The position numbers and the translations under genes were made by a program. This document shows, in pieces, positions 5,076-55,598 of a stretch of DNA of 64,000 nt; position 1 is the first letter of the stretch; the number at the start of each line of letters is the position of its first letter. This DNA comes from Candidatus Lindowbacteria bacterium RIFCSPLOWO2_12_FULL_62_27 (GTDB lineage: Bacteria > Lindowbacteria > 2-12-FULL-62-27). The stretch lies in the NCBI GenBank assembly GCA_001784175.1, contig MFPR01000026.1, positions 62,001 through 126,000 of the forward strand. The letters are read 5' to 3'. A model generated the notes under the pieces. That model was not told the origin of the DNA. It saw only the letters and a list, made by a program, of their open reading frames with translations, and did not search any database.

Positions 5076-5081
5076 AAATGC

Positions 5082-7088: not shown

Positions 7089-7113
7089 GATCCGGCTCCT
7101 TTCTGTTGTCCGT

Positions 7114-8157: not shown

Positions 8158-8888
8158 TCGTCGACGGTGATGAGGTCTTTGATCTTGTCGAATGTGCCCT
8201 GCCGGATTCCCTTGACCTGCATGATCTCCTCGATCGTTGCGAAGTCGCCGTGTTCAGTGCGGTATTCCACGATCCGTTCCGCCGTGGTCTTGCCGATGCT
8301 TGGCAGCGCATCCAGTTCCTTGACCGACGCCCTGTTGATGTTGATCGGCCCGTCGGTGGAGGAGGCGCCCGGGCCGCGCGGCTTGGACGATTTCTTCGCC
8401 GGCGCCGGATCGTCGCCCGACTCGCCCGGCTCGCGGAACGTGCAGTTGGTGATGTCGATGCGTACAAGGTCCTTGACGGCGTCGAATTTCGATGCGCCGC
8501 CGAATCCCTTCACGCTCTGGATGTCCTCGATCGTGCGGAAACACCCGAGCGCGTCGCGGGTCTTGATGATGTTCTTCGCCGTGCCTTCGCCGACGCCGGG
8601 CAGATGGGCGTCGATGAGTTCCTGGGCCGTGGCGTGATTGATGTCGAGTTTGAGGACCTCCTTGAGCGTCTGCTGTTCGTCCCCGCTGAGTACCTGGGGC
8701 GTCCAGTCGGACGACTGGATCGGCACGGCGTCTCCGCGAGCCTCGACCGGCCGGCCGGGATCGCCGGCGGAGGGAGACGCGGGGGCGGATCCGGCGCCGC
8801 CCATGAAAAAAGAGGGCACGGCGGCCAGCAGCGCGACGCCCAGCGCCCCGAGGACCCATTTTTGTTCCGAGGTGACCGTTACTTTCAT
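8154..8888 (-). CDS. comEA: ComEA-like membrane protein with two HhH domains
   Basis: This 244-aa protein has a membrane anchor at residues 11-29 and then two ComEA-type HhH pairs. The first, about 80-145, reads LDINHATAQELIDAHLPGVG and ends DLVRID. The second, about 180-244, reads ININRASVKELDALPSIGK and ends DLITVD. They are joined by a Pro/Ser/Lys linker. Two Cys residues near positions 116 and 149 flank the end of the first domain. Typical ComEA has one pair; a tandem could bind DNA more tightly. It starts immediately after the comEC stop codon and overlaps the MBL gene by 4 nt, which fixes its role as the periplasmic DNA receptor feeding ComEC. The symbol is assigned by domain and context. 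Confidence 0.87.
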   Translation of the reverse strand: MKVTVTSEQKWVLGALGVALLAAVPSFFMGGAGSAPASPSAGDPGRPVEARGDAVPIQSSDWTPQVLSGDEQQTLKEVLKLDINHATAQELIDAHLPGVGEGTAKNIIKTRDALGCFRTIEDIQSVKGFGGASKFDAVKDLVRIDITNCTFREPGESGDDPAPAKKSSKPRGPGASSTDGPININRASVKELDALPSIGKTTAERIVEYRTEHGDFATIEEIMQVKGIRQGTFDKIKDLITVDE

Positions 8889-27350: not shown

Positions 27351-27363
27351 TGAGGGGATTGAA

Positions 27364-30884: not shown

Positions 30885-30909
30885 TCTCGTCCTTTTCATC
30901 AAAGCTCGA

Positions 30910-33227: not shown

Positions 33228-36200
33228 TCAGCGCGAAACGTAAATCTTGTCTTTGACCTGCTCGAAAATTTCGTCGGTGATGTCGGGGACCTGTTTGAGG
33301 TCGGAGATGGTTTTGAATTTGCCGTAGGTGTAGCGGTAGGCGTCGATCATTTTGGCGCGGTACTCGTCGATGCCCGGCAGTTTCTGGAGGTCCTCCAGCG
33401 ACGCCGTGTTGATGTCCATCTTGCCCTGCTGTTCCGGCGACGCTTGCTGAGGCGGAGTGGACGATTTTATTTCCGGCGGCGGAAGAGACGCGTCGTAGGG
33501 TTCCTCCTTGGGCGTGGGCGCAGGCTCGGGCTCAGGCTCAGCCGCCGCAGGCGGCGGTGGCGGTGGCGGCGGCGGTGGCGCCGTGGGCTGCTTTTGTTGC
33601 GGCGCAGGCGCCGCCAGAGGCGCCGGTTTTGGCTGGGGGGCCGGCGCCACCGGTTTGGGCTGCGGCGCGGGCGCCGCGGTCATGGGCGCGGTGGTCGCGG
33701 GCGCGGGCGCCGGCGCAGTCGCCGGCCTCTGCTCCGGCTGCGGCGGCGGCGCCAGTGATCTCGGCCGCGTCGGCGCGACCTTCGGCACGACCACCGGCGG
33801 CGCGGGGGTTGGCGCCGGAGCGGGCGCCGGCGCAGGCGCTGTCCTCGCCGGCTCACTCGGAACGTAGGGCAGGGGCGGCAGTTTCTGTTCCTGCGGCGGC
33901 GCGAGGGTCAGATCGCCAAGTCCCGTGCCGCGGATGATGATGACGGGTTTGATGAATCGCTGGTATAATCCCTTGTTCATGCCGAGTCCGAGCATGAGCG
34001 CCTCAAACTCCTCCTCGCTGCGGAAAATCCCACGGGCCTTGCGCTCCTCCACGATCTTTTGCGCCATCCCGAGGTTAATACCCTTGATCCGCACCAGCTC
34101 CTGGAGACTGACCACGTTCGGGTCAACTTTGTATTCGATCCGGTAGACGACGTCGTCGAAAATCACCCGCGTGAGGCCCGGCACCGTCATCAGGTGCTCC
34201 AGCGCCTGGTAGGGGCCGAACTGCTCGCGTCGCGCCACGATCCGCTGGGCCAGCCGGAAAGGCTGGTCGGGATCGACATCGCTGCGGAGTCCGGGGAGTT
34301 CCGAGATTTCGGCGATGGAGGAGGTGTTGATGTTGACGGGGAATGGCGTGATCTGCTGGAGGGACTTGGCAACCTCCTTCGTGACCTGCGTAGCCTCCGG
34401 CAGGTTGGTGATGACGTGGGGTGAAATGAAGATCATCAGCTCAGTTTTGAGTTTCTTCTCAGTCTTCGACTTGAACAGGTTGCCCACGACGGGTATTTCC
34501 TTCAGAAATGGAACGCCCGAGTTCGAGAGTGTTTTCTTGTCGCGGATGACGCCGCCGAGCACTAGGGTCTGCGCGTCGCCCAGGAGGATCTTCGAGCTGG
34601 CCTCGCGCCGGTCGATCGTCAAAACGGTGCCGGCGACCGGGGTGGCCGAGAATTCGTTGATGGTCACCACGATGTCCAGCTCAACGGTCCGCTCGCTGGA
34701 AATGGTCGGCGTGATTTCAAGGCTCAGGGTCGCGTCCACCGGTTCGGTCGCGGACGACACGACACCGGTGACGGACGTTTGATCGAGCCGGACCCGCACG
34801 GTCTGCCCCAGCAGGATCTTGGCCTTCTGGTTGTTCAAGGTCGTCACCTTGGGCGTGGCCAGAATCTCGGTGCGGTTCGTCGACGTGAGGAACTCAAACA
34901 GGACCCGCGCCTGCGCCGTGTTCAGGATGGCGCGGTAGGTCCCGGCGCCGAGCAGGCTCGGCGAAAATTCCATGCCGAGCTTGCCTTCCTTGCCCGTCAG
35001 TTGACTCGGGTCGAAAACGGATTTCTGCGCGCCGCCGGAGGCGCGGAGGGCGTCCGGGTTGGTGATGAAATTGATACCGCGCTGATCGTTGTCATCCAGC
35101 GTGTATTCGAGGATCGTGGCGTCGATGAGGACCTGGGGCGCGGGCCGGTCGTGGGCGTCGATGATCTTGTGTATTTCGTTCATCTGCGCCGGCGGCGCCA
35201 GCACAGTCAGGATGTTGAGCCGGTCGTCGGCGGTGATGCTGGCGAAAAGCTGGGACTGGGTCGAGGCGGGTTTCGACGTGGTGACGAGGGGATCGAAGTT
35301 TCCCTCCTGAGCGCTGGTGGTGATCTCTCCAGCGGCCCCGGCGGCGCCTTTCCCCGTGCTGCTCTTGACCGTCACCTCGGTGACCTTGCTCTTGCCCTTC
35401 AGAATATTGGCCATTTCGGAGGGTTTGATGTAGCGGAGGACGAAGGACCGGCTGATGAAGTCCGGGGGCGCCGGGGTGGCGATGTCGATGTTCGCGACCA
35501 TGCCGTTCACCATCGGGATGTTGGATTCGAGCGTCGCCACAATGACCAGATTCGGGCCGGCCAGAGATCGGACGACGCCCACGATCCCGCTGCTGATGCC
35601 GCCGGCGCTGACCATCGACCCGGTGAACAGACTGCTCAACAAGACCGCCGCGTCCGCGGCCGTCACATTCTTCATCTGATACACCTTGGTCGTGAATCCA
35701 GGGGTTGTGCCGACGCCGGGCTGATCCATCTCCTGAATGAGCCGTTCGATCTGCTCGATCGATTCCTTCGGCGCTTGAACGATCACGGTGTTGGTGGACT
35801 GGATGAGGTTGATGATGCCGTAAATTTTGCCCGGCGTCAGGCCCGCCTGGTCTGAAGACGTGACAAACCCGGCGAGCGCATTGGCGATGGCGACGGCGCT
35901 CGTGTTCTGGATTTTGTACAGCTTGAATTCCAGATCCCGGTAGGACTTCATCTTCCCGACGAAATCCTTGAAGGCCTCAATGTTTGGCGGCATGTCGCGG
36001 ATGATGAGATACAGCCGGTCCTGGGCCAGCGTGATGAAAATCATGCCGGACGGGGAAAGCATGGTCTTGACGAGTTCGGCGATCTCCGTGCGGAATACGA
36101 GCTGTTCGGACCCGGGCGTGCTGAAGGTCCAGACGGCGTCGCCTGACTGGTTGGTCTTGGCGGTCACGGTCTGCGGCGGGATCACAAGGTAGCTCCGGAG

Positions 36201-39200
36201 CGGAGTGATGTCGAGGATCTGGATTTCCAGTCCCGGCGTCATCTGGATGTCGATCTGCGGGAGCACGGCGGCGACGGCGGACTGGACATCCTCGCGGGCC
36301 AGAACCAGCAGGCTGTTGGCGCGGTCCAGCGGCAGGATCGCCGGCTGGTCGAGGGCGTCGGTGAGGCTGCGGAAGAAACTGATGGCTTGGGACGTCGTGG
36401 CGGTGGATCGCGTTCCCTCGAAGATTTGCGTCGTGAAGAACCGCTGGGCGCCGGTGCGCGCGTCGCGGAGCCCGAGGAACTGCCGGAGGACCTCGGCGGC
36501 GTCCGCGACCCGCATGTTTTTGACCTCGTAGGCCCGGATGAACGTCTTGGTGTTGTCGGCCTGTTCCAGAAGCCGCAGGACGTTTTCGACGATGGCCGGC
36601 GCATCGTAGACGATCACCAGCTTGTTGTCCTTGTCGACGAGCCACCACCCGCGCGAGATTTCCTTGGTGGCGGCGGCCGTCACGGATTCCTCCCACACCC
36701 ATTCGCCCGTGCCGGTGTTGGTGGCCGTGACTCTCTTCCGTTCCTCCTGCGCCGCGGCGGGCGGGGAAGGGATGATGTTTCCGAGGAAAGAGGTGAGATT
36801 TGTCGGATCGAGGAATTTGAGCCGGTAGATGGCGAGTTTCTTGGCGCCCTTGTCGAGCGCGTTGACGGCATTTTCGAGTTCCAGGACGACGTCGCGCCGG
36901 TCGTTTACGAGGTACGAGTTGAATTCGGGATAATGCCGGTACGTGCCGCCCACCGACAGATGTTTATGGATGAGGGCGTCGGCCGTTTCGGTGTCGAGAT
37001 AGAAAAACCGGAACTCGCGGGTCACGGTGTCGGAGTAGGCGGTCTTGACGTCAAGGGATTCGATGACCTGCCCCATCAGGAACAGGACCTCGCGGGTGGA
37101 TAGGATCGTCACCGTGTTTTTAGCGGGGTTCACGGTCATGATGTTGAGGAGCAGCGACTGCTTGACGAACTGCTCGTCCGTGATGCCCTCGCCGGACTTG
37201 CCGCGGACGCGGCGCGTGAGGCGGAGCTGGTCGTAGCTGATGACGCCGAGCTTGGTGATGGACAGGTCGCTGTTGATGACGGTGAACTCGAACTTGCCCG
37301 ACTGCTTGAGGATGTCGGACAGCCTCGAGGCCATCTCGGACGCCGACGCGTTTTTGAGCTGGTACGTGCGGACCTCCAGGTACGACTCCTGGGTCTTGGC
37401 GGTGGAGACATCGAGGACGGCAAGGATGTTGGCGACCTTCTTGACGTTGTCGGCCGTCTGGATGACCAGGAGCCGGTTGGAGAGGGGGTCGGCCACGATC
37501 TGGCCGCCGTCCTTTTCGACGAACTCGGTCAGGAGCTTCACGATGTTTTCGGCGGTCGTGTACTTGAGCTCGAACACGTGCGTGACGAACTTCCCGCCGG
37601 TCTGGGGCGTGTCAGAGACGACCGGGAGCGGCCGGCCGACCGCGCGGGTCTTGGCGATGATGCGGACGGTGTTGCCCTCGGTGACGCGCGTGAGCCCGGA
37701 GCTTTCGAGGACCATGTCGAGGGCTTCGAGGACGGTGACGTCGACGACGTGGATGGTGAGGGGCGGGATCTCGACCTTTTTCTCGGCGCCCTTGTGATCG
37801 AGGAAGGGCACGACGAATTTTTTCTTGGCGTCGTCATATTCGAGGTCGAAGATGACGTTCATGTTGCCGAGTTGCGCGAGGGTGCGGATGACGTCGACGA
37901 CGACGGCGTCCTTGAAATCAAGCGACACGATCCGCTGGCCGGACTTGGCCGTAAAGAGCACGCGCTCGCTCGTGCCCGCGCCGCCGATCAGACTCGCCTC
38001 CACCAGCTGCTCGCCCGCCTCCACGCCGAGGACCCAGACCTCGCAGCGGGCCAGGCCGGCGGTGTCGGAGACGGCCTCGTTGTCGCGGGGGTCGTTGAAT
38101 TTGATGGTGTCGAGCCGGCCGTTGCCTTTGAGGATCGTGTACTGGACTTTCGCGCCGATCACCGGATTGCCGTATTCGTCGGTGACGCGCGTCACGAGGT
38201 GATCCTTCAGTTCGTCGCCCGCAATGGCCTCCTGACCGTCCCCGGAAACTTTTTCGAGGTGGACTGGCGGCCCCGCGGTGACGATCACGGGGATGACCAT
38301 TTCGACGAGGTTGAATTTGGCGGGATCGCCGGCCGAAACCTTGATCGAAATCGGCTCGATCTTTCTGCCCACGGCCAGCGGCGCCTCGGCCACGCCGGAT
38401 TTGTTGGTGTTCACTTTGATTTTCTGAACGCCGTCGGCTGCGGACCCGGAGAGGCTGCCTTCGCCGGACATGAGCTCAAACGTGACCGGCAGGTCGATCA
38501 CCGGCTGGGCGCTGGCCGCGTCGACCACCTTGACGCCCACCGGCGCGGCCTTGCGGGACACGGCGACGCTCTGGCCGGCGCCGATGAGATTGGTGAACGC
38601 GTAGAGCGGGCCGATTTCTACTGTGGGCGTGGGCGCTGCGGCGGGTTCCGTGACGGCCGGCGCTGCCGGCGGCGCGCCCGCCAGCGCCTCGGGCGGCGAC
38701 GCGCCGCCGAACCGCACCCAGATCCCGCCACGGCCGGCCTCCACCGCCGGCTGATCTGAGCCGCGGAGCAGGTCGAGTACGACGCGCGCGGTCATGATCG
38801 GAAACGTGCTGAACTGGCTGTGTCGGATGCGCAGGATCGGGCCGCGTTTGATGTCGTATGATTTCCTTGGCAAACGATCGACCGCGCCGGGCAGGTCGAT
38901 CGACATCATGGGCGGAGAGGCGACAGGGTTGGGCAGAAAATCAACGCCATCGGTCGTTCGGATGAAAACGACCGGCGCGCCCGGTTCGCCGTATACTTCG
39001 AGTCCGTAGACGCTCGGCTCGTCGCCGGCCGGCGGTTTCTCCGAGCCGAACCGCAGGACGGGCGTGCCGGATGTTTCTTTCGGCGCTGCGGGCGCGGCAG
39101 GCGCGGCTGCGGTTGTGGGCGTGGCAGGCGCAGCTTCCGTCGGCGGCGCAACGGCCACGGGTTTCTCCTCTTTCGGCGGTTCCGGCGCTTTCGCTGTTTC

Positions 39201-39833
39201 GGCCGGCGCCACAACCGGCGCGGGTGTGGGCGCTGCGGCCGGAGATTCTCCGGCGGTTACGGCCTTGACTTCTTCCTTCGGCGCCGCTTGCGCGGGCGCT
39301 GGGGCCGGTTTTGGCTCCTCCTTCTTGGCCGCCGCCTTTACGGGTTTTTTCGCGGGTGCAGGTTTGGGTTTCTCCTTGGCCGCAGGTTTCGGCTTCGGTT
39401 TTTCCTCGGGCACCGCGATGATGATGTCCTCCATGATGACTTCCACCGGCGCCGGCGCGGGCTTGGCAACCGGCGTGACCACGGGCTCTGCGGCTGGGGT
39501 GGCTGCGGGTGCAGGAGCGGGTGCAGCAGCGGGAGCGGCCACGGGCGCCGCGGTCGGCGCCGACTCGACGAGCTTGCCCTGGCGCCGCAGTTCGGTCGTG
39601 ACTTCCTCCATGAGCTTCTTCGCCCGCTCGTGCTTCGGATTCTGCTTCAGGGTCTGCTCAAGATACAGGTAGGATTCCTCATATTTTTCCGCGACGTAGG
39701 CCTTGAGCGCCGAACTGAACAACTCGTCGGAACTTGCGGCCAGCGCCGGCATCGCGGCCGACGCGGGGATCGCTGTCGCCGATCCGAGAAGCAGCGCGGC
39801 GATGAACGCCCAACCCCACGCCCCGCGCATCAT
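33228..39833 (-). CDS. pilQ: Giant PilQ-type secretin fused to ComEA-like HhH domains
   Basis: This 2201-aa protein is about three times the usual PilQ length. In order it has: a signal peptide; a TPR-like region (34-75); a long Pro/Ala/Lys-rich stretch to about 255; an AMIN domain (about 262-375); Ig-like segments, the clearest at about 517-628; an STN/N0 domain (633-740, SLDFKDAVVVDVIRTLAQLG); about nine secretin-N (N1-like) domains; and a secretin domain (1568-1808, PQVLIDATILEYTL to LMIFISPHVITN, including VPFLKEIPVVGNLFKS). Then come two HhH pairs (1824-1966), a Pro-rich spacer and a last HhH pair (2138-2201, MDINTASLEDLQKLPGID). PilQ is the outer-membrane gate for the type IV pilus and for DNA uptake. 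Its start overlaps the upstream gene by 4 nt. DNA binding at the gate is inferred. Confidence 0.92.
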   Translation of the reverse strand: MMRGAWGWAFIAALLLGSATAIPASAAMPALAASSDELFSSALKAYVAEKYEESYLYLEQTLKQNPKHERAKKLMEEVTTELRRQGKLVESAPTAAPVAAPAAAPAPAPAATPAAEPVVTPVAKPAPAPVEVIMEDIIIAVPEEKPKPKPAAKEKPKPAPAKKPVKAAAKKEEPKPAPAPAQAAPKEEVKAVTAGESPAAAPTPAPVVAPAETAKAPEPPKEEKPVAVAPPTEAAPATPTTAAAPAAPAAPKETSGTPVLRFGSEKPPAGDEPSVYGLEVYGEPGAPVVFIRTTDGVDFLPNPVASPPMMSIDLPGAVDRLPRKSYDIKRGPILRIRHSQFSTFPIMTARVVLDLLRGSDQPAVEAGRGGIWVRFGGASPPEALAGAPPAAPAVTEPAAAPTPTVEIGPLYAFTNLIGAGQSVAVSRKAAPVGVKVVDAASAQPVIDLPVTFELMSGEGSLSGSAADGVQKIKVNTNKSGVAEAPLAVGRKIEPISIKVSAGDPAKFNLVEMVIPVIVTAGPPVHLEKVSGDGQEAIAGDELKDHLVTRVTDEYGNPVIGAKVQYTILKGNGRLDTIKFNDPRDNEAVSDTAGLARCEVWVLGVEAGEQLVEASLIGGAGTSERVLFTAKSGQRIVSLDFKDAVVVDVIRTLAQLGNMNVIFDLEYDDAKKKFVVPFLDHKGAEKKVEIPPLTIHVVDVTVLEALDMVLESSGLTRVTEGNTVRIIAKTRAVGRPLPVVSDTPQTGGKFVTHVFELKYTTAENIVKLLTEFVEKDGGQIVADPLSNRLLVIQTADNVKKVANILAVLDVSTAKTQESYLEVRTYQLKNASASEMASRLSDILKQSGKFEFTVINSDLSITKLGVISYDQLRLTRRVRGKSGEGITDEQFVKQSLLLNIMTVNPAKNTVTILSTREVLFLMGQVIESLDVKTAYSDTVTREFRFFYLDTETADALIHKHLSVGGTYRHYPEFNSYLVNDRRDVVLELENAVNALDKGAKKLAIYRLKFLDPTNLTSFLGNIIPSPPAAAQEERKRVTATNTGTGEWVWEESVTAAATKEISRGWWLVDKDNKLVIVYDAPAIVENVLRLLEQADNTKTFIRAYEVKNMRVADAAEVLRQFLGLRDARTGAQRFFTTQIFEGTRSTATTSQAISFFRSLTDALDQPAILPLDRANSLLVLAREDVQSAVAAVLPQIDIQMTPGLEIQILDITPLRSYLVIPPQTVTAKTNQSGDAVWTFSTPGSEQLVFRTEIAELVKTMLSPSGMIFITLAQDRLYLIIRDMPPNIEAFKDFVGKMKSYRDLEFKLYKIQNTSAVAIANALAGFVTSSDQAGLTPGKIYGIINLIQSTNTVIVQAPKESIEQIERLIQEMDQPGVGTTPGFTTKVYQMKNVTAADAAVLLSSLFTGSMVSAGGISSGIVGVVRSLAGPNLVIVATLESNIPMVNGMVANIDIATPAPPDFISRSFVLRYIKPSEMANILKGKSKVTEVTVKSSTGKGAAGAAGEITTSAQEGNFDPLVTTSKPASTQSQLFASITADDRLNILTVLAPPAQMNEIHKIIDAHDRPAPQVLIDATILEYTLDDNDQRGINFITNPDALRASGGAQKSVFDPSQLTGKEGKLGMEFSPSLLGAGTYRAILNTAQARVLFEFLTSTNRTEILATPKVTTLNNQKAKILLGQTVRVRLDQTSVTGVVSSATEPVDATLSLEITPTISSERTVELDIVVTINEFSATPVAGTVLTIDRREASSKILLGDAQTLVLGGVIRDKKTLSNSGVPFLKEIPVVGNLFKSKTEKKLKTELMIFISPHVITNLPEATQVTKEVAKSLQQITPFPVNINTSSIAEISELPGLRSDVDPDQPFRLAQRIVARREQFGPYQALEHLMTVPGLTRVIFDDVVYRIEYKVDPNVVSLQELVRIKGINLGMAQKIVEERKARGIFRSEEEFEALMLGLGMNKGLYQRFIKPVIIIRGTGLGDLTLAPPQEQKLPPLPYVPSEPARTAPAPAPAPAPTPAPPVVVPKVAPTRPRSLAPPPQPEQRPATAPAPAPATTAPMTAAPAPQPKPVAPAPQPKPAPLAAPAPQQKQPTAPPPPPPPPPPAAAEPEPEPAPTPKEEPYDASLPPPEIKSSTPPQQASPEQQGKMDINTASLEDLQKLPGIDEYRAKMIDAYRYTYGKFKTISDLKQVPDITDEIFEQVKDKIYVSR

Positions 39834-42800
39834 TCGCCGAGAACCCTCAACACTTTTTCTAGCCGCGCCCGGAGCGACGTCGCCTCCGGATGGCCCGGAT
39901 GCTCGGCGATGAACTGCTCAATCGCCGTTTTCGCCGCGCGGTACTCGCCCTTGTCGACCAGTGCCTGAACGTCCGCCATGCTCGGCGCCGCGGCCGCCGC
40001 AGGTCTTTGCCTCTCGACCGGCGTCGGCTGCGTGAGGGTCGGCGTCGGCGCTCCGGCGCCGGGCCGGAGCGTGATGTGAAGGAGATTCGCGCGGGAGAGG
40101 ATGGAATAAGCGTACGCGGCGTCGATCTTGAGCACCAGCCGCGTCGCTTCGCCGCCGTCCCCCGCAAGTTTCGCGGCCCGGAGGCCGGGCAGGTCGAGCG
40201 CGTCGTAGTCGTAGACGCGGAGCAGGCCCGTCTGCGGCAGCGAAATCACGAGCGCGCTCAAGCCGGACCCGAATTGCGTCGGCTGCGACGCGCGATAGTC
40301 GATGGGCCCCGACGCCACGACGTACACGTCGGTGCGGTCGGGCGCCGCCTTGAAAAACAGGCCCTCCGCGCGCGGACGCCAGTCGCTCACGGGCGGCTCC
40401 CGAAGCGCCGGCGCCGGCGCGCCTTTCACCTGGATGGTGATGCGGCCAGCCTCGGGATACACGAGATATCCTTCCGACACGCCCCGCGTGAACATCTGCG
40501 GCGTAAAAGAAGACGGCGTCAGGGCGGTCGGCCGGGCGCCGGCCCCGCCGATGTCGATCTGGACCGGCTGGCCGATGCTGCGCGCGTCCTCGACGGGATT
40601 GCCGTAGGCGTCCAGCGCGGTGACGCGAACCCGGAACGGCTCGCCCGCGATCACCTGGTCGAGCACGTCGACCCGGAAGGTCGCCGCGCTGCCGGGCAGG
40701 ACCTCCACGGTGTTGGACCGGCCGCTTCCGCGGCGGTCCTCGGTCGAGGCTGTGATTTCAGTCTTGCCGGACGATGCGAGCGTGACGGAGACGATGGCGA
40801 TTCCCTCGGAGAAATTTCCGGCGTGGATCACGTCGGGCGATATTCTATTCTGCCCGGTGGACGCCAGCAGAATTTTCCCGGGCTCGTCGAATTCACGGAT
40901 CAGATTGTAGTACATGTCCTGCGCCTCGATCCGCACCGGAAACGGCTCGCCCGCTCGGACCTTGGGCGCGACCGACACGAGGAACTGCGACAGCGGGCCG
41001 GCGTTCACTTTCAGGTGCCCCGACTGGCCGGCGGCCGTGCCGAACCGCTCGCTCGCGGTGAGCAGGATGCGCTCGGCGACGAAGGACCGAAGTTCCACCT
41101 GGGCGACGCCGTCTTTGAACGCGGCCGGTGCCACCTGCGCCGGCTGGACCTCGCCGATTCCGGAGGACTGGATGAGAATGCCGCTGCCGGACCGGTGATA
41201 GTCGGTGACGGTGTTGCCGTAGGCGTCCCTGGCCGTGACGGCGATCCGGTAGGGCGCGCCGGCTCTTGCGGCGGCCGGCGTGGTCACATCAAAATGATGC
41301 AGCGCGGCCGGCATGACTTCGATCGGTCCTGACAGCGCGCGCTTGCCGCGGCCGCTCGGAAGTTCCGCGATCACGCGGACCGTGCCCGTGCGGTAATAGG
41401 GGAGGGTGGCGGAGGATTTGCCGTAAGCAAATGATGCGGCCGGAATTTCCGTCGCGGCCGGCGCCTGCGGGCCGTCGACCTGCACGAGCACGCTCCCCTG
41501 GCCGAACTCGGCGACGGGGTTTCGGTAGGCGTCGATCACCGTCAGCGCGACGGGAATGCCGGAACCGGCCGTCGCCACGGACGCGGTTGTGATCTCAACG
41601 TCGGCCGGCATGCCCGGCCGGACCCGCACTTGGATCGGCTCGGACCGGAGAAGCCCCCCGGCGTCCTGGGCGGTGATCCGGATGTCTTCGGCCACGTTGT
41701 AGGACACTTTGCGTTCGATGATGGCTTTCACAAATGAGTGCGGCGCGATTTCGATCGGCGTTGTCCGTACGGTCCCCTGGACCGTCAGGAGAATCGTGCC
41801 TTCCGGAGACTTGGACGGGTTGCCCTTGGAATCGACGGCGCGGATTTTGACCGCAAAAGGCGCTCCGGCGTCGGCCTCTCCGGGCGCCGAAAGTTCCAGC
41901 CGGCGTGGCCGCCCGGGCTGGATGTCGACCGTGCCCGAAACGCCGGACCGCCGGGTGCCGGGTTCGGATGCGGCGAGAAGGATCTGTTCGGTTTTCGGAT
42001 AGGTGAGCCGCACAAAGGCGACGCCCTTCACGAACAACTTGGCGGGCAATTCCGACGGCGACGGCGAGGCGGTGCCGTCGGCGGAGAGGTAGACGACGGT
42101 GCCGATGGCGTCGTAATCCATGACGACATTGCCGAATTCATCGAGCGCGGTGATCGCGACATCGAAAGGCTCATCGACGGGCACGGCGGGAGGCGCCGTG
42201 ATCTGAAAGCGGTGCGGTGCGCCGGAGGCGACGGACAGTTTCGACGGGGCCTTGCCGACCACGCCGGTTTTCGGGTCGCGCGCGCGGACTTCGACCTCGC
42301 CGGTGCCGGTGTAGGTGACGGCGGCATCGGCCACGCCGTCGCCGAACTGCGCCGGCATCACGCGCGTCGGCGTCAGCCGGCCGAACCCGTCGCTCGACAG
42401 GATCACGCCCTCGGTCTGCTTGTTGAATTCCTTGATGATGTTTCCGAACGCGTCCAGCGCCATGATCGTCAGCCGGAAGGGCACGCCGGCCCGCGCGGTC
42501 GCGGGCTGCGTCACGCGGATTTCGCTGAGCTTGCCGGGCGCCACCACGAACGGGGCGCTCCGGGCCTCGATCCGGCCGACTGCGCCGCTCGTGGACCGCG
42601 CGACAAGCTCGATTCGCTCGGCGACCTTGTAGATCATCTGAAGTTCCGCGACGCCGCGCACAAAGGATCTCGGCAGAACCGACTTCGGCCAGATCTCACC
42701 CCGGCCGGACACCGAAATATCCATTTCGATCGACCGGCGGTCCATGTCGGTCACCACGTTGCCGAACCGGTCCCGCACTTCCAGTTTCACCCCGAAGGGT

Positions 42801-42946
42801 TCGCCGCATACGGGATTGGCGGGCACGGTCCACACCACGGCCGCAGGCTCGCCGGCCTGTACCTCAAGATCGGCCGCCTTCGCCGGCAAGGAGAAGCACA
42901 GCAGGATTGCCGCCAGCGCGCCCATGTGTCCGCGTAGGAGGATCAT
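39830..42946 (-). CDS. Secreted Ig-repeat protein with AMIN-like domain and TPR, in pil operon
   Basis: This 1038-aa exported protein has a signal peptide ending near residue 25 (LPAKA). It then has eight tandem Ig-like units of about 95-100 residues, each with a version of AGEPFRVRVTALDAYGNPV. At about 869-960 lies an AMIN-like domain (VYVVASGPIDYRASQPT to LHITLRPG); AMIN domains attach secretins and amidases to peptidoglycan. The last 50 residues form a TPR-like helix pair (MADVQALVDKGEYRAAKTAI). It overlaps pilP and the secretin gene by 4 nt each. I do not know this architecture from standard pilus operons. A cell-wall scaffold or collar around the long secretin is a reasonable inference. 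Confidence 0.8.
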   Translation of the reverse strand: MILLRGHMGALAAILLCFSLPAKAADLEVQAGEPAAVVWTVPANPVCGEPFGVKLEVRDRFGNVVTDMDRRSIEMDISVSGRGEIWPKSVLPRSFVRGVAELQMIYKVAERIELVARSTSGAVGRIEARSAPFVVAPGKLSEIRVTQPATARAGVPFRLTIMALDAFGNIIKEFNKQTEGVILSSDGFGRLTPTRVMPAQFGDGVADAAVTYTGTGEVEVRARDPKTGVVGKAPSKLSVASGAPHRFQITAPPAVPVDEPFDVAITALDEFGNVVMDYDAIGTVVYLSADGTASPSPSELPAKLFVKGVAFVRLTYPKTEQILLAASEPGTRRSGVSGTVDIQPGRPRRLELSAPGEADAGAPFAVKIRAVDSKGNPSKSPEGTILLTVQGTVRTTPIEIAPHSFVKAIIERKVSYNVAEDIRITAQDAGGLLRSEPIQVRVRPGMPADVEITTASVATAGSGIPVALTVIDAYRNPVAEFGQGSVLVQVDGPQAPAATEIPAASFAYGKSSATLPYYRTGTVRVIAELPSGRGKRALSGPIEVMPAALHHFDVTTPAAARAGAPYRIAVTARDAYGNTVTDYHRSGSGILIQSSGIGEVQPAQVAPAAFKDGVAQVELRSFVAERILLTASERFGTAAGQSGHLKVNAGPLSQFLVSVAPKVRAGEPFPVRIEAQDMYYNLIREFDEPGKILLASTGQNRISPDVIHAGNFSEGIAIVSVTLASSGKTEITASTEDRRGSGRSNTVEVLPGSAATFRVDVLDQVIAGEPFRVRVTALDAYGNPVEDARSIGQPVQIDIGGAGARPTALTPSSFTPQMFTRGVSEGYLVYPEAGRITIQVKGAPAPALREPPVSDWRPRAEGLFFKAAPDRTDVYVVASGPIDYRASQPTQFGSGLSALVISLPQTGLLRVYDYDALDLPGLRAAKLAGDGGEATRLVLKIDAAYAYSILSRANLLHITLRPGAGAPTPTLTQPTPVERQRPAAAAAPSMADVQALVDKGEYRAAKTAIEQFIAEHPGHPEATSLRARLEKVLRVLGE

Positions 42947-43839
42947 TCGCCCCCCAAGTCCAGGCCGCCGCCACCGCCCGCGCCGCCACCGCCGCCACCC
43001 GCGCCCCCGCCGTCCGATTTCGTCTCTTCCTCCTCCGCTTCCTCGTCCGTCACTTCCTCGTCCGCCGCGGCCCCCTCGTCGGCTGCCGCTTTTTTCTTCT
43101 TGGATTTTTTCGTCTCCTCGGCGTCGCCGCCCTCTTCACCCTTGGCCTTGCCCTCGCCTCCCCCGCCCTCCTCGCCCTCCTCGAGCTTCACCGTCGCTTT
43201 CTTGCCGTACCGCGCGTCGTACTCCCAGTTGGACCGCGTCTTGTAGGCGTTGGAGGCCAGCGCTTCCCTGAGATCGTCCAGACCGTACTCCTGCGGGAGA
43301 TACACGGGCGCGGGCAGAAGGCCCTCCTCTTGGACCGTGATGCGGCTGCGGCCGATCTCCACGACTTTCTTTTGCGTCCCCCGGATGTTCTTCCCCTCCA
43401 GCACCACGATCGCGACCCCGTTGACTTCAATGAGCGCGCTCCGCCGCTGCGCCGCATAGGAGTAGACGGTGCCGATGAGATCGATGCCGGTCACGTCGGT
43501 CACCTTGTCCTCCTTGTCCAGCCCCGTCTGCTCGAACACGCCGAAGGGCAGGAAGGGATTGTGCTGCCGGAGAAGCCGGACATCGTAGGACATCTGGGCG
43601 GCCGCGGCGGGGGGAGGCGGCGGTTTCGGCTTGTACCGCCGCATCTGCTCCTCGACTCGGGCCCGCACGGTCCGGGCGTCCTCGAGACCGTACAGCACAA
43701 GGAAATTGGGCTCGAACGCGAAGAGATCGACCAGGCCCTGTGTGACGTAGACGTTTCCCAGGAGCGTCACCCAGAACAGGATCTTCAGGACCGGCACTTT
43801 CGCGTTGATCTTGAAAAATACGTCCTTCAATTTGCCCAT
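42943..43839 (-). CDS. pilP: Type IV pilus inner-membrane lipoprotein/GspC-like protein PilP
   Basis: This 298-aa protein has one N-terminal membrane span (about 18-40, VLKILFWVTLLGNVYVTQGL) instead of the usual lipobox, then a Pro-rich stretch and a PilP/GspC homology-region-like beta domain (about 100-175: NPFLPFGVF, GIDLIGTVYS, SALIEVNGVAIVV). PilP links the PilN-PilO ring to the secretin. The C-terminal 80 residues are acidic and Lys-rich, ending in a Gly run, which is not typical. It sits between pilO (1-nt gap) and the Ig-repeat gene (4-nt overlap). The assignment rests on domain pattern plus operon position. Confidence 0.82.
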   Translation of the reverse strand: MGKLKDVFFKINAKVPVLKILFWVTLLGNVYVTQGLVDLFAFEPNFLVLYGLEDARTVRARVEEQMRRYKPKPPPPPAAAAQMSYDVRLLRQHNPFLPFGVFEQTGLDKEDKVTDVTGIDLIGTVYSYAAQRRSALIEVNGVAIVVLEGKNIRGTQKKVVEIGRSRITVQEEGLLPAPVYLPQEYGLDDLREALASNAYKTRSNWEYDARYGKKATVKLEEGEEGGGGEGKAKGEEGGDAEETKKSKKKKAAADEGAAADEEVTDEEAEEEETKSDGGGAGGGGGGAGGGGGLDLGGE

Positions 43840-43840: not shown

Positions 43841-44398
43841 TCAGACCTCCGTCAACGTCGACGAATAGACGTTGGCGATAATACTAATGGTAAAACTTTG
43901 AAGTTTCGTGCCGGGAGCCAGCGGGTCGGGGCTGATGTTGATCGAAGAAATGTCGATCAGCCGCTCGTAGTTTTCAATGCGCCACAGAAATTCAACGAGC
44001 TGGAACCAGTAACAGGTGAACTGTATCCTGAGAATTTCCGCCTTCCAACCCTCGCCGCGATCCCTGCTTTCCTCCGGCTGTATGCCCTTGATCCGGACGC
44101 CGGCCCGCGCCGCCAGTTCCTGCATTTTGGCGATCAGCTCGAACGACCCGGCCTCCGTCGGCAACACCTTTTTCAGCTCCGCCAGGCGGTACTTCAACAG
44201 GTCGACCTCGCCGGCGAGCTCACTCATATTTTCGGCTTTTTTGTGCGCTGTCCTGAGTTCCTTCACCAGAGTGCTGATCTGCTCCTCGCGCTTCTTGTGC
44301 TCGTCGTACATCGGCACCACGAACATCCAGATCAGGCCGCCGACCGCGGCGACCCCCAGAAACCCGAGGGCCTTCTTGTCGCTCTCCTTGAGTTCCAT
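43841..44398 (-). CDS. pilO: Type IV pilus alignment protein PilO
   Basis: This 185-aa protein has one membrane span (about 10-30, ALGFLGVAAVGGLIWMFVV), a coiled coil (about 32-80, rich in Lys/Glu with heptads) and a ferredoxin-like periplasmic domain with the typical PilO segment ELAARAGVRIKGIQP and WFQLVEFLWRIENYERLIDI. PilO pairs with PilN to form the inner-membrane alignment ring. It follows the pilM-pilN fusion after 3 nt and precedes pilP by 1 nt. Length and order are standard. Confidence 0.92.
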   Translation of the reverse strand: MELKESDKKALGFLGVAAVGGLIWMFVVPMYDEHKKREEQISTLVKELRTAHKKAENMSELAGEVDLLKYRLAELKKVLPTEAGSFELIAKMQELAARAGVRIKGIQPEESRDRGEGWKAEILRIQFTCYWFQLVEFLWRIENYERLIDISSINISPDPLAPGTKLQSFTISIIANVYSSTLTEV

Positions 44399-44401: not shown

Positions 44402-46882
44402 TTATGCGCCTCCCGCGCCCGGCACGGGCGCGGATTTGGCGGCGGCTGCGTGGTTGACTTGGAGGGTGAAATCGACCTCGAAGGTCTTGCCGGTCGGACC
44501 CTCGACCTCCCGCGGGCTGGGGCGGTTGACCAGCGTGAAGAGGTCCTTGGTCAGCTCCGGCGTCTGAAACCGTTTGCCGATGCCCGGGATTTCCGCAAGG
44601 CTGTTCGTCACGATCCTCAGGTCAATCCGCTCTTTCGTCGGCATCGTCAACGACCGGACCGCCGCGTTTTCCGGAATGGTCCGGTCCAGCGCCGAGAGGA
44701 CGGCCATCCACATGGCGCGGGACCCGAGGAGGTTCGCGATGGATTTCTCCAGATCGTTGACGGTCTTCTGGTCCTTTTCGAGCTGCCGGGTCCGCGTGAC
44801 CACGGGATCGAGTTCCTGGATGTCGGACTGGATCTTGGCGTGAAGCGTCTTGGTGTTGTGGACGGTCATGTAGGCGGACAGGCCGCCGAGCACGAGCAGG
44901 AGGCCGGCGGCGATCCCGAACCATTTCACGTCTTTCCCCATGGACCGCATGCGCCGGATGGCCAGGATGTTTTCGGGCAGCATGTCGATGTCGAGGGGCG
45001 TTCCGTCCAGGATTCGCATGCCCATGCCAAGGGCCGCCGCAAATGCCTGTGGATTGTCCTGCGACTGGCCTGACGGCACGGTCACTTTGCCTACCGGGTC
45101 AAAGACCGTCACCGGGACGTTCAGTTGCGTCGACAAATATTCGGCCAGGCCTTTCAGCGCGGCGCCGCCGCCCGAGAGATGGACCCGCTTGATTTCTCCG
45201 CCGCCGAGCTGGCCGACAAAATAATCGAAGGACCGCCGAAGCTCAGTGGCCAGACGGTCCGCAATCGGCTTGACGGCGGCTGTGAGCTTGTCCTTGTCGA
45301 CTTTGATGTCTTCCTTTTCGCTCTCGAATAAACTGAATACCTCGCCATCCTCAGCCTTCGCCGCGCCGAGCGATTTCCCTCCCGGTCCGCCCGGCGGCGC
45401 CGGCGCCGGCGGTTTGGGGCCGGGCAATCCCAGTCCGGGTGGGGGCGGCGCTTTCAATCCGGGCGGGGGTGGAGCCCCGGGCGGAGCCGGGGCCGCTGTC
45501 GGCGGTTTGGGCAACGAAAGCGCCGGGGGCTTGAGTGTCGGCGCCGCCGGAGGTTTCGGCGCAGCAGGCGCAACAGGCGCGGTCTGCGTGGGTGCCGGGG
45601 GTTTCATCATCGGTGGCTGCGGCAGCGCGACTTCAGTTACTTTCTTCGGTATCTCTTGAGCCGGCGCGGCCGCCGGCTTTTCAGCGGTGGGTGGCGCGGG
45701 AGGTTTCAATCCACCCGCGGCCGTCGCCCCAGGCAGGGGTGCCGCAAGTCCCGGCGCTTTGGGCGGCGTCAAGCCCCCGGCCGATGGCGGTGTGAGCCCG
45801 CCCGCGGCCGGCGCCGGCGCCGCAAGTCCCGGCGCTTTCGGCGGAATCAGCCCGCCGGCGGCCGGCGGGGCCATGGATGGCCCCGTCCCTGCCGTCCGCG
45901 ACGCCAAGGATGGCGTCGCCCCAGGCAGGGGGGGCGTCAGCCCCGGCGCTTTGGGCGGCGTGAGTCCGCCCGCGGCGGCGGGCCCCGCCAATCCAGGCGC
46001 CTTGGGCGCCGCCAGTCCGGGAGACTTGGCCGTTGGCATCGACGCTCCGGGCGCTTTGGGCGAGGCGAGTCCGCCGGGCGTCCGCCCCTCGCCTTCGAGA
46101 GAGGCGAGATCCGCCTGGATGGCTTTGACCTCGGCATGTTTGATCTTGAGTACCTCGGCCTTGTCCTCCGGGATGCCCAGGCGCTTCGAGATGATCTCGG
46201 TGAAACTTCGGCCGGCGATGGGCACGCTTCTGGTGAAAAACACTCTCTGATTCTTGATGAACGCGATGTCGGTTGTCCCCGCGCCGATGTCGACGAAGAC
46301 CTCCGAGATGTCTTCCTCTTTTTCGTCCTTCAGCTCCCCATGATAATACAGGGAAAAAAGGGCCAGGGTCGTGACATCGACGATCAGGACCTCCAGTCCC
46401 GCGTCTTCGATGATCGTTACCATGCTGTCCAGCTTGTCCCGCTTGATCGCAACGAGAAGCACCTCGAAGCCGTTGTCCTTCTTTCGCGCCTCGCACCAGT
46501 CCAGCGACACCTCGTCCAGCGGAAACGGTATGTGCCCCTCCGCCTCGTGCCGGACCACCCCTTCCAGCCGGTCCTTGGGGATGCCTTGGAAGGTCAGATA
46601 GCGGATGATGACGGACTGGGCCGGCAGGGCGAAAATCGCGTTTTGTTTTCGGAATTTGTGTTTGTCCACGAGGGCCTTCAGAAGCTCCGCGGCCTTGGCC
46701 TCAAAGTCCTTCCCGGCAAGACCCGCCGGCATGGGCAGACTGTCCCACACGTCGACCTTGTACTTCCCGCCGCCCCCGGTCAGACGGCAGACCTTCACCG
46801 CTGACGCGCCGATGTCCACGGCGAGACACGACTTCTTGCCGAACTTGGGCAGACCGGTCAATGCCGGCAGCTTGAATGCCAT
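44402..46882 (-). CDS. pilM-pilN: PilM-PilN fusion with a proline-rich insertion
   Basis: This 826-aa protein combines two usually separate subunits. Residues 1-260 are the first half of PilM, an actin-like ATPase (CLAVDIGASAVKVCRL, FVDIGAGTTDIAFI). Residues 262-504 are a low-complexity insert built of repeated GGLTPPKAPGLAAP-like units. Residues 505-640 are the second half of PilM (RVHLSGGGAALKGLAEYL, PQAFAAALGMGMRI). A basic stretch and membrane span (651-672, WFGIAAGLLLVLGGLSAYM) then start PilN, whose coiled coil and ferredoxin-like domain end at 826. In usual systems PilM binds the cytoplasmic tail of PilN; here they are covalently joined. GAGGG precedes the ATG. It is the first gene of the pil operon. 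Confidence 0.92.
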   Translation of the reverse strand: MAFKLPALTGLPKFGKKSCLAVDIGASAVKVCRLTGGGGKYKVDVWDSLPMPAGLAGKDFEAKAAELLKALVDKHKFRKQNAIFALPAQSVIIRYLTFQGIPKDRLEGVVRHEAEGHIPFPLDEVSLDWCEARKKDNGFEVLLVAIKRDKLDSMVTIIEDAGLEVLIVDVTTLALFSLYYHGELKDEKEEDISEVFVDIGAGTTDIAFIKNQRVFFTRSVPIAGRSFTEIISKRLGIPEDKAEVLKIKHAEVKAIQADLASLEGEGRTPGGLASPKAPGASMPTAKSPGLAAPKAPGLAGPAAAGGLTPPKAPGLTPPLPGATPSLASRTAGTGPSMAPPAAGGLIPPKAPGLAAPAPAAGGLTPPSAGGLTPPKAPGLAAPLPGATAAGGLKPPAPPTAEKPAAAPAQEIPKKVTEVALPQPPMMKPPAPTQTAPVAPAAPKPPAAPTLKPPALSLPKPPTAAPAPPGAPPPPGLKAPPPPGLGLPGPKPPAPAPPGGPGGKSLGAAKAEDGEVFSLFESEKEDIKVDKDKLTAAVKPIADRLATELRRSFDYFVGQLGGGEIKRVHLSGGGAALKGLAEYLSTQLNVPVTVFDPVGKVTVPSGQSQDNPQAFAAALGMGMRILDGTPLDIDMLPENILAIRRMRSMGKDVKWFGIAAGLLLVLGGLSAYMTVHNTKTLHAKIQSDIQELDPVVTRTRQLEKDQKTVNDLEKSIANLLGSRAMWMAVLSALDRTIPENAAVRSLTMPTKERIDLRIVTNSLAEIPGIGKRFQTPELTKDLFTLVNRPSPREVEGPTGKTFEVDFTLQVNHAAAAKSAPVPGAGGA

Positions 46883-50537: not shown

Positions 50538-50567
50538 TTGACCTCGCCCGGCGGATGATACTACACT
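50538..50567 (+). promoter_or_regulatory. Sigma70-like promoter of the PilT-type gene, probably leaderless
   Basis: TTGACC (50538-50543), an 18-nt spacer and TACACT (50562-50567) end 8 nt before the ATG at 50576. No ribosome binding site lies between. Confidence 0.5.
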
Positions 50568-50575
50568 GGGCGATT

Positions 50576-51676
50576 ATGTCGACAACCTATCACGTCAACG
50601 ATTTTTTGAAGATGATGGTCGACAACGGCGCGTCCGACCTCATCCTCAAGACGGGCTCCGCGCCCGCGATGCGCATCAACCGGGCGCTGGTGAAAATTGA
50701 AATGGAGCCGCTGTCGCCCGACGCCATGGAGAAACTCTGCCTGAACATTACCGACTGGGACAAGGTCTCCAAGGTGAAGGCCGGCGAGGAACAGGACATG
50801 GCCTACAGCCTCGCCGGGGCCGGCCGGTTTCGCGTCAATATGTTCCGCCAGCGCGGGTCGCTCGGCATGGTGTTCCGGCACATCAAGGGCTATATCCCGA
50901 ACTTCGAGGAACTGATGCTGCCGCAGGTCATGTTCAACCTCTGCAATTTCCAGTACGGCATTTTCCTCGTGACCGGCACGACCGGCAGCGGCAAATCGAC
51001 GACGCTGGCCGCCATGGTCGATTACATCAACACCAGCATGGCCAAACACATCGTCACGATCGAGGACCCGATCGAGTACCTGCACAAGGACAAAATGAGC
51101 GTCGTCACCCAGCGCGAGATCGGGCTGGACACGATCAACTACGGGGCGGCCCTCAAATTCGTGCTCCGGCAGAACCCCGACATCATCCTCGTCGGGGAAA
51201 TGCGCGACAAGGAAACTGTCGACACGGCCTTCGCCGCCGCCGAAACCGGACACCTCGTCTTCTCCACCCTCCACACCGCCAACGCGCCGCAGACGATCGA
51301 ACGCATCCTTGAGTTTTATCAGGAGGTGGAGAAGGAGCGGATGCGAACGCTGATGTCCGAGTTTCTGGTCGCGGTCGTGTCCCAGAGGCTCGTGCCGAAG
51401 GCCGACGGCAAGGGCATGGTGCCGAACGTCGAGATCATGATTCAGACGCCGATCATCAAGAAACTCATCATCGACAACCGCGTCCCCAAACTCAAATCCG
51501 CCATCCACCAGGGTCGCCAGGAGGGACTGCAGACCTTCGACCAGTCCCTCGTCGATCTCTTCAACGCCGGCCTTATCTCCAACGACGAGGCCCGCATCCG
51601 CGCATCCAAACCCGCCGCATGGGAGCTGTACCTCAAAGGACACTTTCCGGACATCGACACGGGTATTCTGGGTTAG
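50576..51676 (+). CDS. PilT/PilU-type pilus retraction ATPase
   Basis: This 366-aa cytosolic hexameric ATPase powers pilus retraction. It has an N-terminal PAS-like domain (DFLKMMVDNGASDLILKTGS), Walker A (GTTGSGKSTT near residue 140), the Asp box (TIEDPIEYLH), Walker B (NPDIILVGEMRDKET) and the His box (AAETGHLVFSTLHTANA). The C-terminal EGLQTFDQSLVDLFNAG is typical; PilU rather than PilT is possible given VSQRLVPKADGKG and the longer tail. The ATG at 50576 is preferred over one at 50555 because of promoter spacing and the family N-terminus. It is followed after 11 nt by the radical SAM gene. Retraction pulls DNA through the secretin in transformable bacteria. Confidence 0.95.
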   Translation: MSTTYHVNDFLKMMVDNGASDLILKTGSAPAMRINRALVKIEMEPLSPDAMEKLCLNITDWDKVSKVKAGEEQDMAYSLAGAGRFRVNMFRQRGSLGMVFRHIKGYIPNFEELMLPQVMFNLCNFQYGIFLVTGTTGSGKSTTLAAMVDYINTSMAKHIVTIEDPIEYLHKDKMSVVTQREIGLDTINYGAALKFVLRQNPDIILVGEMRDKETVDTAFAAAETGHLVFSTLHTANAPQTIERILEFYQEVEKERMRTLMSEFLVAVVSQRLVPKADGKGMVPNVEIMIQTPIIKKLIIDNRVPKLKSAIHQGRQEGLQTFDQSLVDLFNAGLISNDEARIRASKPAAWELYLKGHFPDIDTGILG

Positions 51677-54155: not shown

Positions 54156-55598
54156 ATGGCACTAGGCCCTCCGGCGGGAGGCTCGCGAGGTCGGGGCATG
54201 ATTCCATTCTGTCTGATCATACTTCTGGCCTCCGACCTCCCCGCACCGGCGGAGTGGCCGGCCGGGGACGAGCTGGCCGCGCTGGAACGCAAACTCCCGG
54301 TCCTCTACTGGGAGGGTGGGTGGGATTTGCGGGACGAGTTTGAGATGTTCATCCGCGACCATCCGGGCGAAACGGATATGGCCGCCCGGGCCCGGGCGCA
54401 CATGGGGGAATATTATTACAGCGTGAATGACAGCCCCCGCGCGTTGGAGATATTCCAATCGGTCGCGTTGCAATTCCCCGGAACATCCGGCGCGCGTCTG
54501 GCGCTCCTGCGCATTGCGGATCTGTACCGTTATCAGATGGAGGGGGATCATGTGGCCGCCTACGAGCGGGTGGCCCGTGATTTTCCGGGAACACGGGAGG
54601 CGGGAGAGGCCATCTGGAAACTGGCGCGCCACTTTCTTGCGGCAGGGCAATCCGATACGGCCGCGCGACTGTTCACGGAAGTGATCGACACGTATCCCTT
54701 GAACCATTTCGAAGTCGCCTGGTCTCACATGGAACTGGGGAATCTTGCCGGGTCCGGGGATGCGTTGCCGCATTACAGCCGCGGATTGGGCGTTTCGACG
54801 ACGGAAGACTACATCTTCAGGGAAATCATCGCCAGGGTGGTTGATGTTTCTTACGATGACGAAGCCTTTCTGTCGCACCAGTTGTACGGCCCGGCCGGGC
54901 CGGACGGGATCAGGGGTACGGACGACGACATGGACACCCCGGAAATAGCGTCGCCGCGCCCGATGGATTGGATGGAGTCCCAAATGCGTGCCGCGCCGGA
55001 CGACGCCTTACGGCGTGACATCGAGGCGCGTCTTCTTCGCCTGAAATTTTTCCTCGCCTTCAACCTAGGCGACGAAGAGCGCATCCGGCTCTACGAAACG
55101 CGCCTCGGGTCGATCTATTACGACCGCATGGCCTCTTCCGAGCTTTCGAAAGGGGAACGGGTCACAGCGCTGAAGGATTTCATGGCGTTGAAATTACGCC
55201 AATTCCGCACCGGATTGTTGCAGGACAAGGTTGCCCTTCCGGAGTCCGATCCGGCGGCGGTCGAGGACGTGCGGATGTGGATTCGGCGGCTGATGGACGT
55301 TTATGATGGCGACCCGGTGTACGACCTCTTGCTCGGCATGGAGTCGTCGCTCGATCCGCGCTCCGAATATCCGGCGTCCCAAGCACGCCCCGTCCAGGAC
55401 GGGAAAATCGACATCAACAGCGCCTCTCTGGACGACCTCACGCGGCTCCCCGGCATCGACGAGTACCGCGCGAAAATGATCGACGCCTACCGGTATACCT
55501 ATGGCCCCTTCGAAACGATCGACGATTTAAAACGGGTTCCTGACATCACCCCTGAGATTTACGGGAGAATCAAGGACCATGTTCGGATCGAGCCCTGA
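54156..55598 (+). CDS. Exported TPR protein with C-terminal ComEA-like HhH domain
   Basis: This 480-aa protein has an N-terminal signal (Arg-containing start, then MIPFCLIILLASDLPAPA; an ATG at 54198 is an alternative start). TPR/Sel1-like helices occupy about residues 50-180 (AHMGEYYYSVNDSPRALEIF, LARHFLAAGQSDTAARLF), followed by a helical middle. Residues 416-480 are a ComEA-type HhH pair: IDINSASLDDLTRLPGID, AKMIDAYRYTYGPFETIDDL and RVPDITPEIY. This module is roughly two-thirds identical to the last domain of the giant secretin, so the two proteins probably share a DNA ligand or work at the same place. It stands alone, divergent from the toxin-antitoxin pair and convergent with the MuiA-like gene. 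Confidence 0.85.
   Translation: MALGPPAGGSRGRGMIPFCLIILLASDLPAPAEWPAGDELAALERKLPVLYWEGGWDLRDEFEMFIRDHPGETDMAARARAHMGEYYYSVNDSPRALEIFQSVALQFPGTSGARLALLRIADLYRYQMEGDHVAAYERVARDFPGTREAGEAIWKLARHFLAAGQSDTAARLFTEVIDTYPLNHFEVAWSHMELGNLAGSGDALPHYSRGLGVSTTEDYIFREIIARVVDVSYDDEAFLSHQLYGPAGPDGIRGTDDDMDTPEIASPRPMDWMESQMRAAPDDALRRDIEARLLRLKFFLAFNLGDEERIRLYETRLGSIYYDRMASSELSKGERVTALKDFMALKLRQFRTGLLQDKVALPESDPAAVEDVRMWIRRLMDVYDGDPVYDLLLGMESSLDPRSEYPASQARPVQDGKIDINSASLDDLTRLPGIDEYRAKMIDAYRYTYGPFETIDDLKRVPDITPEIYGRIKDHVRIEP

Follow-up and report, generated by a model that had tools for sequence, protein, structure and literature searches.

The window analysed here, a 64,000-nucleotide stretch (positions 62,001 to 126,000) of contig MFPR01000026.1 from Candidatus Lindowbacteria bacterium RIFCSPLOWO2_12_FULL_62_27, contains the gene for a giant secretin with helix-hairpin-helix (HhH) motifs at its C-terminus. 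The gene is a single unbroken open reading frame (ORF) on the minus strand (33228-39833), with its ATG at 39833 and its stop codon at 33228-33230. The 2201-amino-acid (aa) product comprises, in order, a signal peptide, TPR-like and AMIN-like parts, Ig domains, an N0 domain, eight or nine secretin-N domains, the secretin domain and three HhH pairs (Table 1). The protein belongs to the secretin superfamily, with a C-terminal PF00263 domain at residues 1649-1808 (Pfam, E 3.3e-43) following Secretin_N domains that are matched over the whole protein in seven significant stretches (E 3.6e-56). It gives no direct Pfam match to AMIN, and that assignment comes from homologues. Of the NCBIfam models, the GspD model TIGR02517 is passed (403 bits, cut-off 351), though this score is a sum over four stretches and is probably raised by the repeated N-domains. 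The PilQ model TIGR02515 is not reached (223 bits, cut-off 284), and the PilQ label is owed to the pil operon in which the gene lies. A tblastn search against plasmids returned only secretins of less than 60% identity, none covering 80% of the query.

HHH_3 matches the secretin in three stretches (E 2.5e-38; 130 bits against a cut-off of 27), all of them after the secretin domain and beyond residue 1810. The ComEA HhH repeat model TIGR00426 is also passed (86.7 bits, cut-off 53.1), while the full comEA model TIGR01259 is not (88.9 against 152.35). The T2SSK profile likewise matches the tail of the secretin and of its homologues. Among characterised HhH sequences, those nearest to pair 3 include ComEA: its phmmer matches include the ComEA crystal structures 8dfk and 8dss, and it aligns end to end with ComEA of B. 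subtilis and G. stearothermophilus. It also shares 63% protein identity with the HhH pair that ends a 480-aa TPR protein encoded elsewhere in the window. The coding DNA of the two pairs (33263-33431 and 55395-55563, on opposite strands) is 77% identical over 169 bp, which suggests duplication of the module, or gene conversion, between the two genes. Among the four secretins of the window genome (4.39 Mb), only the 2201-aa protein bears HhH pairs. HHH_3 itself has 32 hits genome-wide, many at the C-termini of Ser/Thr kinases and others in further proteins. A cluster of Ser/Thr protein kinase genes on another contig of the genome (G000, C33:60000-100000) encodes one or two C-terminal HHH_3 pairs per protein.

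The N-terminal side of the gate is also extended. The STN match is weak on the whole protein and reaches E 4e-6 on an isolated piece. Scanned piecewise with Pfam, the following region yields eight Secretin_N matches, at residues ~751-810, 822-930, 942-1000 (weak, E 0.12), 1001-1095, 1100-1199, ~1304-1375, 1383-1455 and 1463-1575. Residues 1200-1300 give no Pfam match in the same scan, and a low-confidence AlphaFold model places a beta/alpha unit there as well. The two AlphaFold models made of parts of the secretin (pLDDT 44 and 45) were used for secondary-structure patterns only; a Foldseek search with the N-stack model returned periplasmic domains of secretins, with TM-scores too low for counting domains. 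The stack therefore consists of N0 plus eight, perhaps nine, N-domains. The initial annotation had described about nine N-domains before the gate and three HhH pairs after it, and matches to Secretin, Secretin_N, HHH_3 and, weakly, STN uphold both parts of that description. The stack exceeds that of T. thermophilus PilQ, whose six rings (N0-N5) have been called unusual (PMC8578077), and raises the length known for N-domain stacks in the periplasm.

Relatives were sought with C-terminal pieces of the secretin, and a census with a tail profile was taken over 290 genomes from across the bacterial domain. The C-terminal query retrieved proteins of 2026 and 2126 aa (73% and 59% identical over the C-terminal region) from two other genera of the same family. 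The tail profile yielded further large ORFs in genomes G020 and G167 (family f19), G134 and G271 (f133), G069 (f68) and G210 (f186). Pfam confirmed the combination of Secretin and HHH_3 in five scanned ORFs, and the G020 protein was read directly. In all, nine of the 290 sampled genomes encode a secretin with an HhH tail, in most cases within the same pil operon; the count is a lower bound because the tail profile misses diverged cases. The fusion is present in seven of seven sampled genomes of three phyla (3/3 in the window family, 2/2 in the G020 phylum and 2/2 in the G134 phylum). As G069 and G210 fall outside these, at least four phyla possess it, several of them little known. In seven proteins, pairs 1 and 2 come directly after the secretin domain and keep a common register, with a third pair in some cases further on; the exceptions are G020, which lacks the third pair, and G167, which ends at a contig end. 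G069 and G210 have a second layout, with four HhH pairs on proline-rich linkers. Several tail residues are invariant across phyla. The G069 ORF (L142:7883-16219, minus strand) is at least 2779 aa long and contains nine Secretin_N stretches; its N-terminus appears in an overlapping frame, possibly owing to an assembly frameshift.

These relatives bear on two ways in which the tail might mean little. The first is a mis-joined ORF or an assembly error; evidence of a mis-joined neighbouring gene was what the initial annotation had named as refuting its reading. Its probability is negligible: nothing was found in support, and the two close relatives and those of distant phyla, in independent metagenome-assembled genomes, show the same layout in one open frame. 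The second is that the lineage adds HHH_3 domains to many of its proteins, as the kinase C-termini and other genomic hits might suggest, and that the pilus secretin is an ordinary one whose tail has no specific role in uptake. We consider this improbable, given that the tail is found in every sampled genome of three phyla and that the register of pairs 1 and 2 and several residues are maintained over such distances. Judged by its recurrence in these genomes, the secretin-HhH fusion is real and conserved. Its parts are known (secretin, N-domains, HhH, even a long N-stack), but the combination appears to be new to the papers searched; no description of a secretin-HhH fusion was found in that literature, an absence there not being proof that none exists.

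The secretin gene lies in an operon of the pilM-N-O-P-Q type, in which PilM_2, PilO and PilP/GspC-like proteins are encoded in order, together with a putative PilN part. The same order is found, as far as the contigs reach, in G001, G002, G020, G167 and G134. Relatives of the 1038-aa Ig/TPR protein hold the same place beside the secretin in other phyla. The window genome also encodes a PilT retraction ATPase recognised by TIGR01420, as expected for a secretin of a type IVa pilus. The annotated parts of the window revealed no type II secretion system (T2SS) genes, and the neighbours of the secretin are pil-type; a separate gspD-like gene lies with T2SS-like genes on contig C4 of the window genome.

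A set that includes DNA-uptake genes lies on the same strand of the window, in the order GAF-like gene (14137-15459), NDK, comEC, ComEA-type gene, a gene for a metallo-beta-lactamase (MBL) protein and a gene for an HhH lipoprotein. In G020, the secretin gene is followed by genes for a protein of ~400 aa, ComEC, an HhH protein with three pairs, a stand-alone MBL protein like the ComEC C-terminus and an HhH lipoprotein. The last four of these are a set of the same kind as that at 6678-11840 in the window. In G001, the gene next after the secretin is a relative of the GAF-like gene; distant relatives, joined by a chain of weak similarity, take this place in G020, G134 and G271. A DNA-uptake setting for the secretin operon, with its link to comEC, comEA-type genes and pilT, is well supported by this gene content.

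Some further observations concern this neighbourhood. A plus-strand block (15514-33223) between the comEC cluster and the secretin operon looks like an insertion or expansion. Near its ends stand the two copies of a 1.62-kb direct repeat (17830-19451 and 31587-33208; 82% DNA identity), which contain two related secreted-protein genes with 85% protein identity. An inverted pair of 52-bp sequences, 90% identical, lies far apart in the window (5027-5078 and 53272-53323). The window genome has four comEC-like genes (C2:40213, C26:72044, C28:20369 and C33:5529), and the window copy has its separate MBL-domain gene two genes downstream. G134 (L148:6390-7331, plus strand) and G271 (L149:101-1078, minus strand) encode proteins with three HhH pairs that are probably membrane-anchored, the third pair lacking canonical hairpins.

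Table 1. Features of the secretin, its operon and the DNA-uptake genes in the window
Feature	Position	Strand	Details and evidence
Probable lipoprotein, one canonical ComEA-type HhH pair (GIGEKK)	6678..7298 (stop-to-stop)	-	Sequence and profile
Separate MBL protein like the ComEC C-terminus	7114..8157	-	Lactamase_B E 4.8e-14; TIGR00361 positions 442-663
ComEA-type protein, two HhH pairs	8154..8888	-	HHH_3 E 2.7e-35; TIGR00426 105.8 bits (cut-off 53.1)
ComEC (Competence and DUF4131)	8889..11840	-	Pfam E 6.4e-31; TIGR00360 over cut-off
GAF-like protein, 440 aa	14137..15459	-	GAF E 0.008; 54% identity to G001 gene
HhH-tailed giant secretin	33228..39833	-	2201 aa, single ORF; Pfam, NCBIfam, relatives
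HhH pair 3, ComEA-like by sequence	33234..33422	-	Residues 2138-2200; hairpins GID/DIT; Arg at ComEA K63 position
Pro/Ala-rich linker	33429..33908	-	Residues 1976-2135, ~160 aa, 38% Pro
HhH pair 2	33939..34130	-	Residues 1902-1965; hairpins GIN/GMN
HhH pair 1	34149..34340	-	Residues 1832-1895; hairpins GLR/GLT; insertion in first hairpin
Secretin (beta-barrel/gate) domain	34410..34889	-	Residues 1649-1808; Pfam E 3.3e-43
Stack of eight Secretin_N-type domains and one unassigned unit	35109..37583	-	Residues ~751-1575; Pfam piecewise, low-confidence model
N0/STN domain	37632..37919	-	Residues ~639-734; STN E 4e-6 on isolated piece
Two Ig-like (Big_1-type) domains	37932..38621	-	Residues ~405-634; Big_1 E 0.0017 at 532-622; homologues Big_1/Invasin_D3
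AMIN-like domain	38700..39020	-	Residues ~272-378; alignment to homologues with significant Pfam AMIN
1038-aa protein, Ig-like repeat array and C-terminal TPR	39830..42946	-	Directly upstream of secretin; homologues in G001 (54% identity) and G020 (26%)
PilP/GspC-like protein	42943..43839	-	T2SSC E 1.5e-4; operon position
PilO	43841..44398	-	Pfam PilO E 6.5e-12
PilM with long C-terminal extension, probably a PilM-PilN fusion	44402..46882	-	PilM_2 E 4.6e-50, TIGR01175; PilN part inferred
PilT retraction ATPase	50555..51676	+	TIGR01420 439.9 bits (cut-off 319)
TPR protein of 480 aa with a C-terminal HhH pair	54156..55598	+	Pair close to secretin HhH pair 3 (63% protein identity)

Whether the tail could bind DNA was judged from its hairpins. 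The first HhH motif of V. cholerae ComEA has a GIG hairpin that contains G60, and K62 and K63 come after it (PMC3879209); since residue 62 is lysine, G60 is the second glycine of the hairpin. The substitution G60A has no effect, G60V and G60E render the strain non-transformable and K63A causes a ~250-fold drop (PMC3879209). K164, the equivalent of K63 in B. subtilis ComEA, is central as well (PMC9747964). HhH pairs of the nine secretins were aligned with those of comEC-linked HhH proteins from the same and related genomes. The second glycine of the G-h-G hairpin is found in none of 41 scored secretin hairpins (0/24 first, 0/17 second), compared with 56 of 62 in the comEC-linked proteins (29/31 first, 27/31 second). 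The difference gives Fisher p values of ~1e-13 for first and ~1e-9 for second hairpins, calculated on rows that are not phylogenetically independent. In GspK, the control with a non-DNA role, the second glycine occurs in 3 of 31 hairpins, all of them in two ORFs that do not reach the cut-off of the GspK family. As the residue is nearly absent from both, the secretin hairpins resemble those of GspK rather than those of ComEA. Positions 62 and 63 do not separate the secretin and comEC-linked sets (basic residue at position 63 in 3/24 and 7/31, respectively), and lysine at these positions was dropped as a second criterion for DNA binding. Nor are the two sets told apart by net charge. Among scored secretin pairs, an arginine at the K63 position is confined to the third pair, where all three proteins of the Lindowbacteria family have it.

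Hairpins changed in this way make simple DNA binding by the tail at the strength of ComEA less likely. The initial annotation had equated the HhH pairs with the DNA receptor of ComEA; the match to ComEA-type profiles stands, but the functional equation is not supported in that form, as the glycine is lost in 41 of 41 hairpins, GspK likewise lacks it, and HhH domains are not DNA-binding by default. DNA contact is still conceivable because pair 3 of three family members keeps its arginine, and we regard direct contact by the tail as possible, if somewhat doubtful. A role in protein docking or assembly, of the kind played by the HhH domains of the minor pseudopilin GspK and involving no DNA contact, has in our estimate slightly less than an even chance, about the same as direct DNA contact. 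It would account for the GspK-like hairpins, for the T2SSK matches and for the occurrence of pair 3 in both the secretin and the TPR protein, which would fit a docking module that the two share. Candidate partners are adjacent subunits of the secretin, a lipoprotein resembling a pilotin, proteins of the pilus tip or further HhH proteins. Docking accords less well with the presence of ComEA among the closest characterised sequences to pair 3, with the arginine of that pair, and with a multicopy tethered layout that suits a polymer ligand.

The position of the tail bears on the same question. In secretins of solved structure, what follows the secretin domain is the S-domain, the part to which pilotin lipoproteins bind (PMC6532946), and the HhH tail sits in the same place, a further point in favour of docking. 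The low-confidence AlphaFold model has a helix at residues 1811-1828, then HhH-type helices. By analogy with the S-domain, the tail is expected on the periplasmic side and on the outside of the barrel rather than within the lumen of the pore. Gripping at the pore would therefore mean catching DNA past the channel exit, or binding something else. In the reading of the initial annotation, the secretin has its own ComEA and seizes DNA directly at the gate in the outer membrane; the fusion on which this reading builds is upheld. The profile and crystal-structure matches and the linkage to comEC, comEA and pilT speak for it, and display in a ring would give strong avidity. Nevertheless, the hairpin glycine is lost in every scored copy across phyla, valine or glutamate at this site abolishes ComEA function in V. 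cholerae (PMC3879209), the K62 and K63 sites have no lysine and only the arginine of pair 3, and the location expected for the tail is outside the barrel. We consider such a built-in receptor possible but rather doubtful. As stand-alone ComEA-type proteins are also encoded in the window genome, the fused domains do not replace ComEA.

We propose, at roughly even confidence, that the protein is the secretin of a DNA-uptake-linked type IV pilus carrying a multivalent periplasmic HhH collar. Its subunits would assemble as a ring like those of other secretins, giving dozens of HhH pairs per complex. Like S-domains, the tail would surround the barrel from outside, at the periplasmic face of the outer membrane, and a long, flexible, proline-rich tether would hold pair 3. 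The collar would engage the uptake path where DNA enters the periplasm, either touching DNA weakly and repeatedly or docking partners such as ComEA-type HhH proteins or the pilus. In a more specific form, which we think unlikely, the secretin itself would be a DNA receptor, a ring with about 40 or more tethered HhH pairs at the periplasmic pore exit that holds DNA by avidity through hairpins adapted to weak, releasable contact and then hands it over to ComEA and ComEC.

Several points, besides the missing hairpin glycine, weigh against the proposed collar. HhH pairs 1 and 3 carry a negative net charge, although ComEA itself is also near -2. In the window, a distance of 22 kb separates the comEC cluster from the secretin, and genes on the opposite strand take up 17.7 kb of it; in G134 the GAF-like gene is followed by EF-G and not comEC. 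The link of the secretin to DNA uptake is thus one of gene neighbourhood in two phyla and is not universal. The AlphaFold structure models are too poor to place the tail. Type IV pili are also used for motility and adhesion.

An open point in natural transformation is how DNA is caught just past the outer-membrane secretin and prevented from sliding back, a step for which current models invoke diffusible periplasmic ComEA. HhH pairs that belong to the pore protein itself, persist in several phyla and are linked in some to comEC would, if they bind DNA, provide a direct physical link between the pore and DNA handling. Alternatively, they would show that secretins can use HhH domains for docking, as GspK does. 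Under both readings a specific and testable part becomes visible.

The HhH-tailed secretin resembles the type IV pilus secretin PilQ in its secretin domain, its N0 and repeated N-domains, its AMIN-type N-terminal part, its pilM/N/O/P operon and the nearby pilT. Unlike PilQ of T. thermophilus with its six rings (PMC8578077), it has N0 plus eight or nine N-domains, Ig domains and three HhH pairs, and it scores below the NCBIfam PilQ cut-off. It resembles GspD in an N0-N3/secretin layout that scores over the TIGR02517 cut-off and in a post-secretin region corresponding to the S-domain, but it lies in a pilus-type operon with no gsp genes found beside it, and its tail is HhH rather than S-domain. 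With ComEA and TIGR00426 it shares the (HhH)2 sequence family, pair 3 aligning end to end, whereas its HhH domains are covalently part of a secretin, lack the second hairpin glycine and have no K62/K63-type lysines, only the arginine of pair 3. The tail is like the HhH/SAM-like domains of GspK in its T2SSK matches and its hairpins without the second glycine; in GspK, however, these domains belong to a pseudopilin, and here they are part of the secretin.

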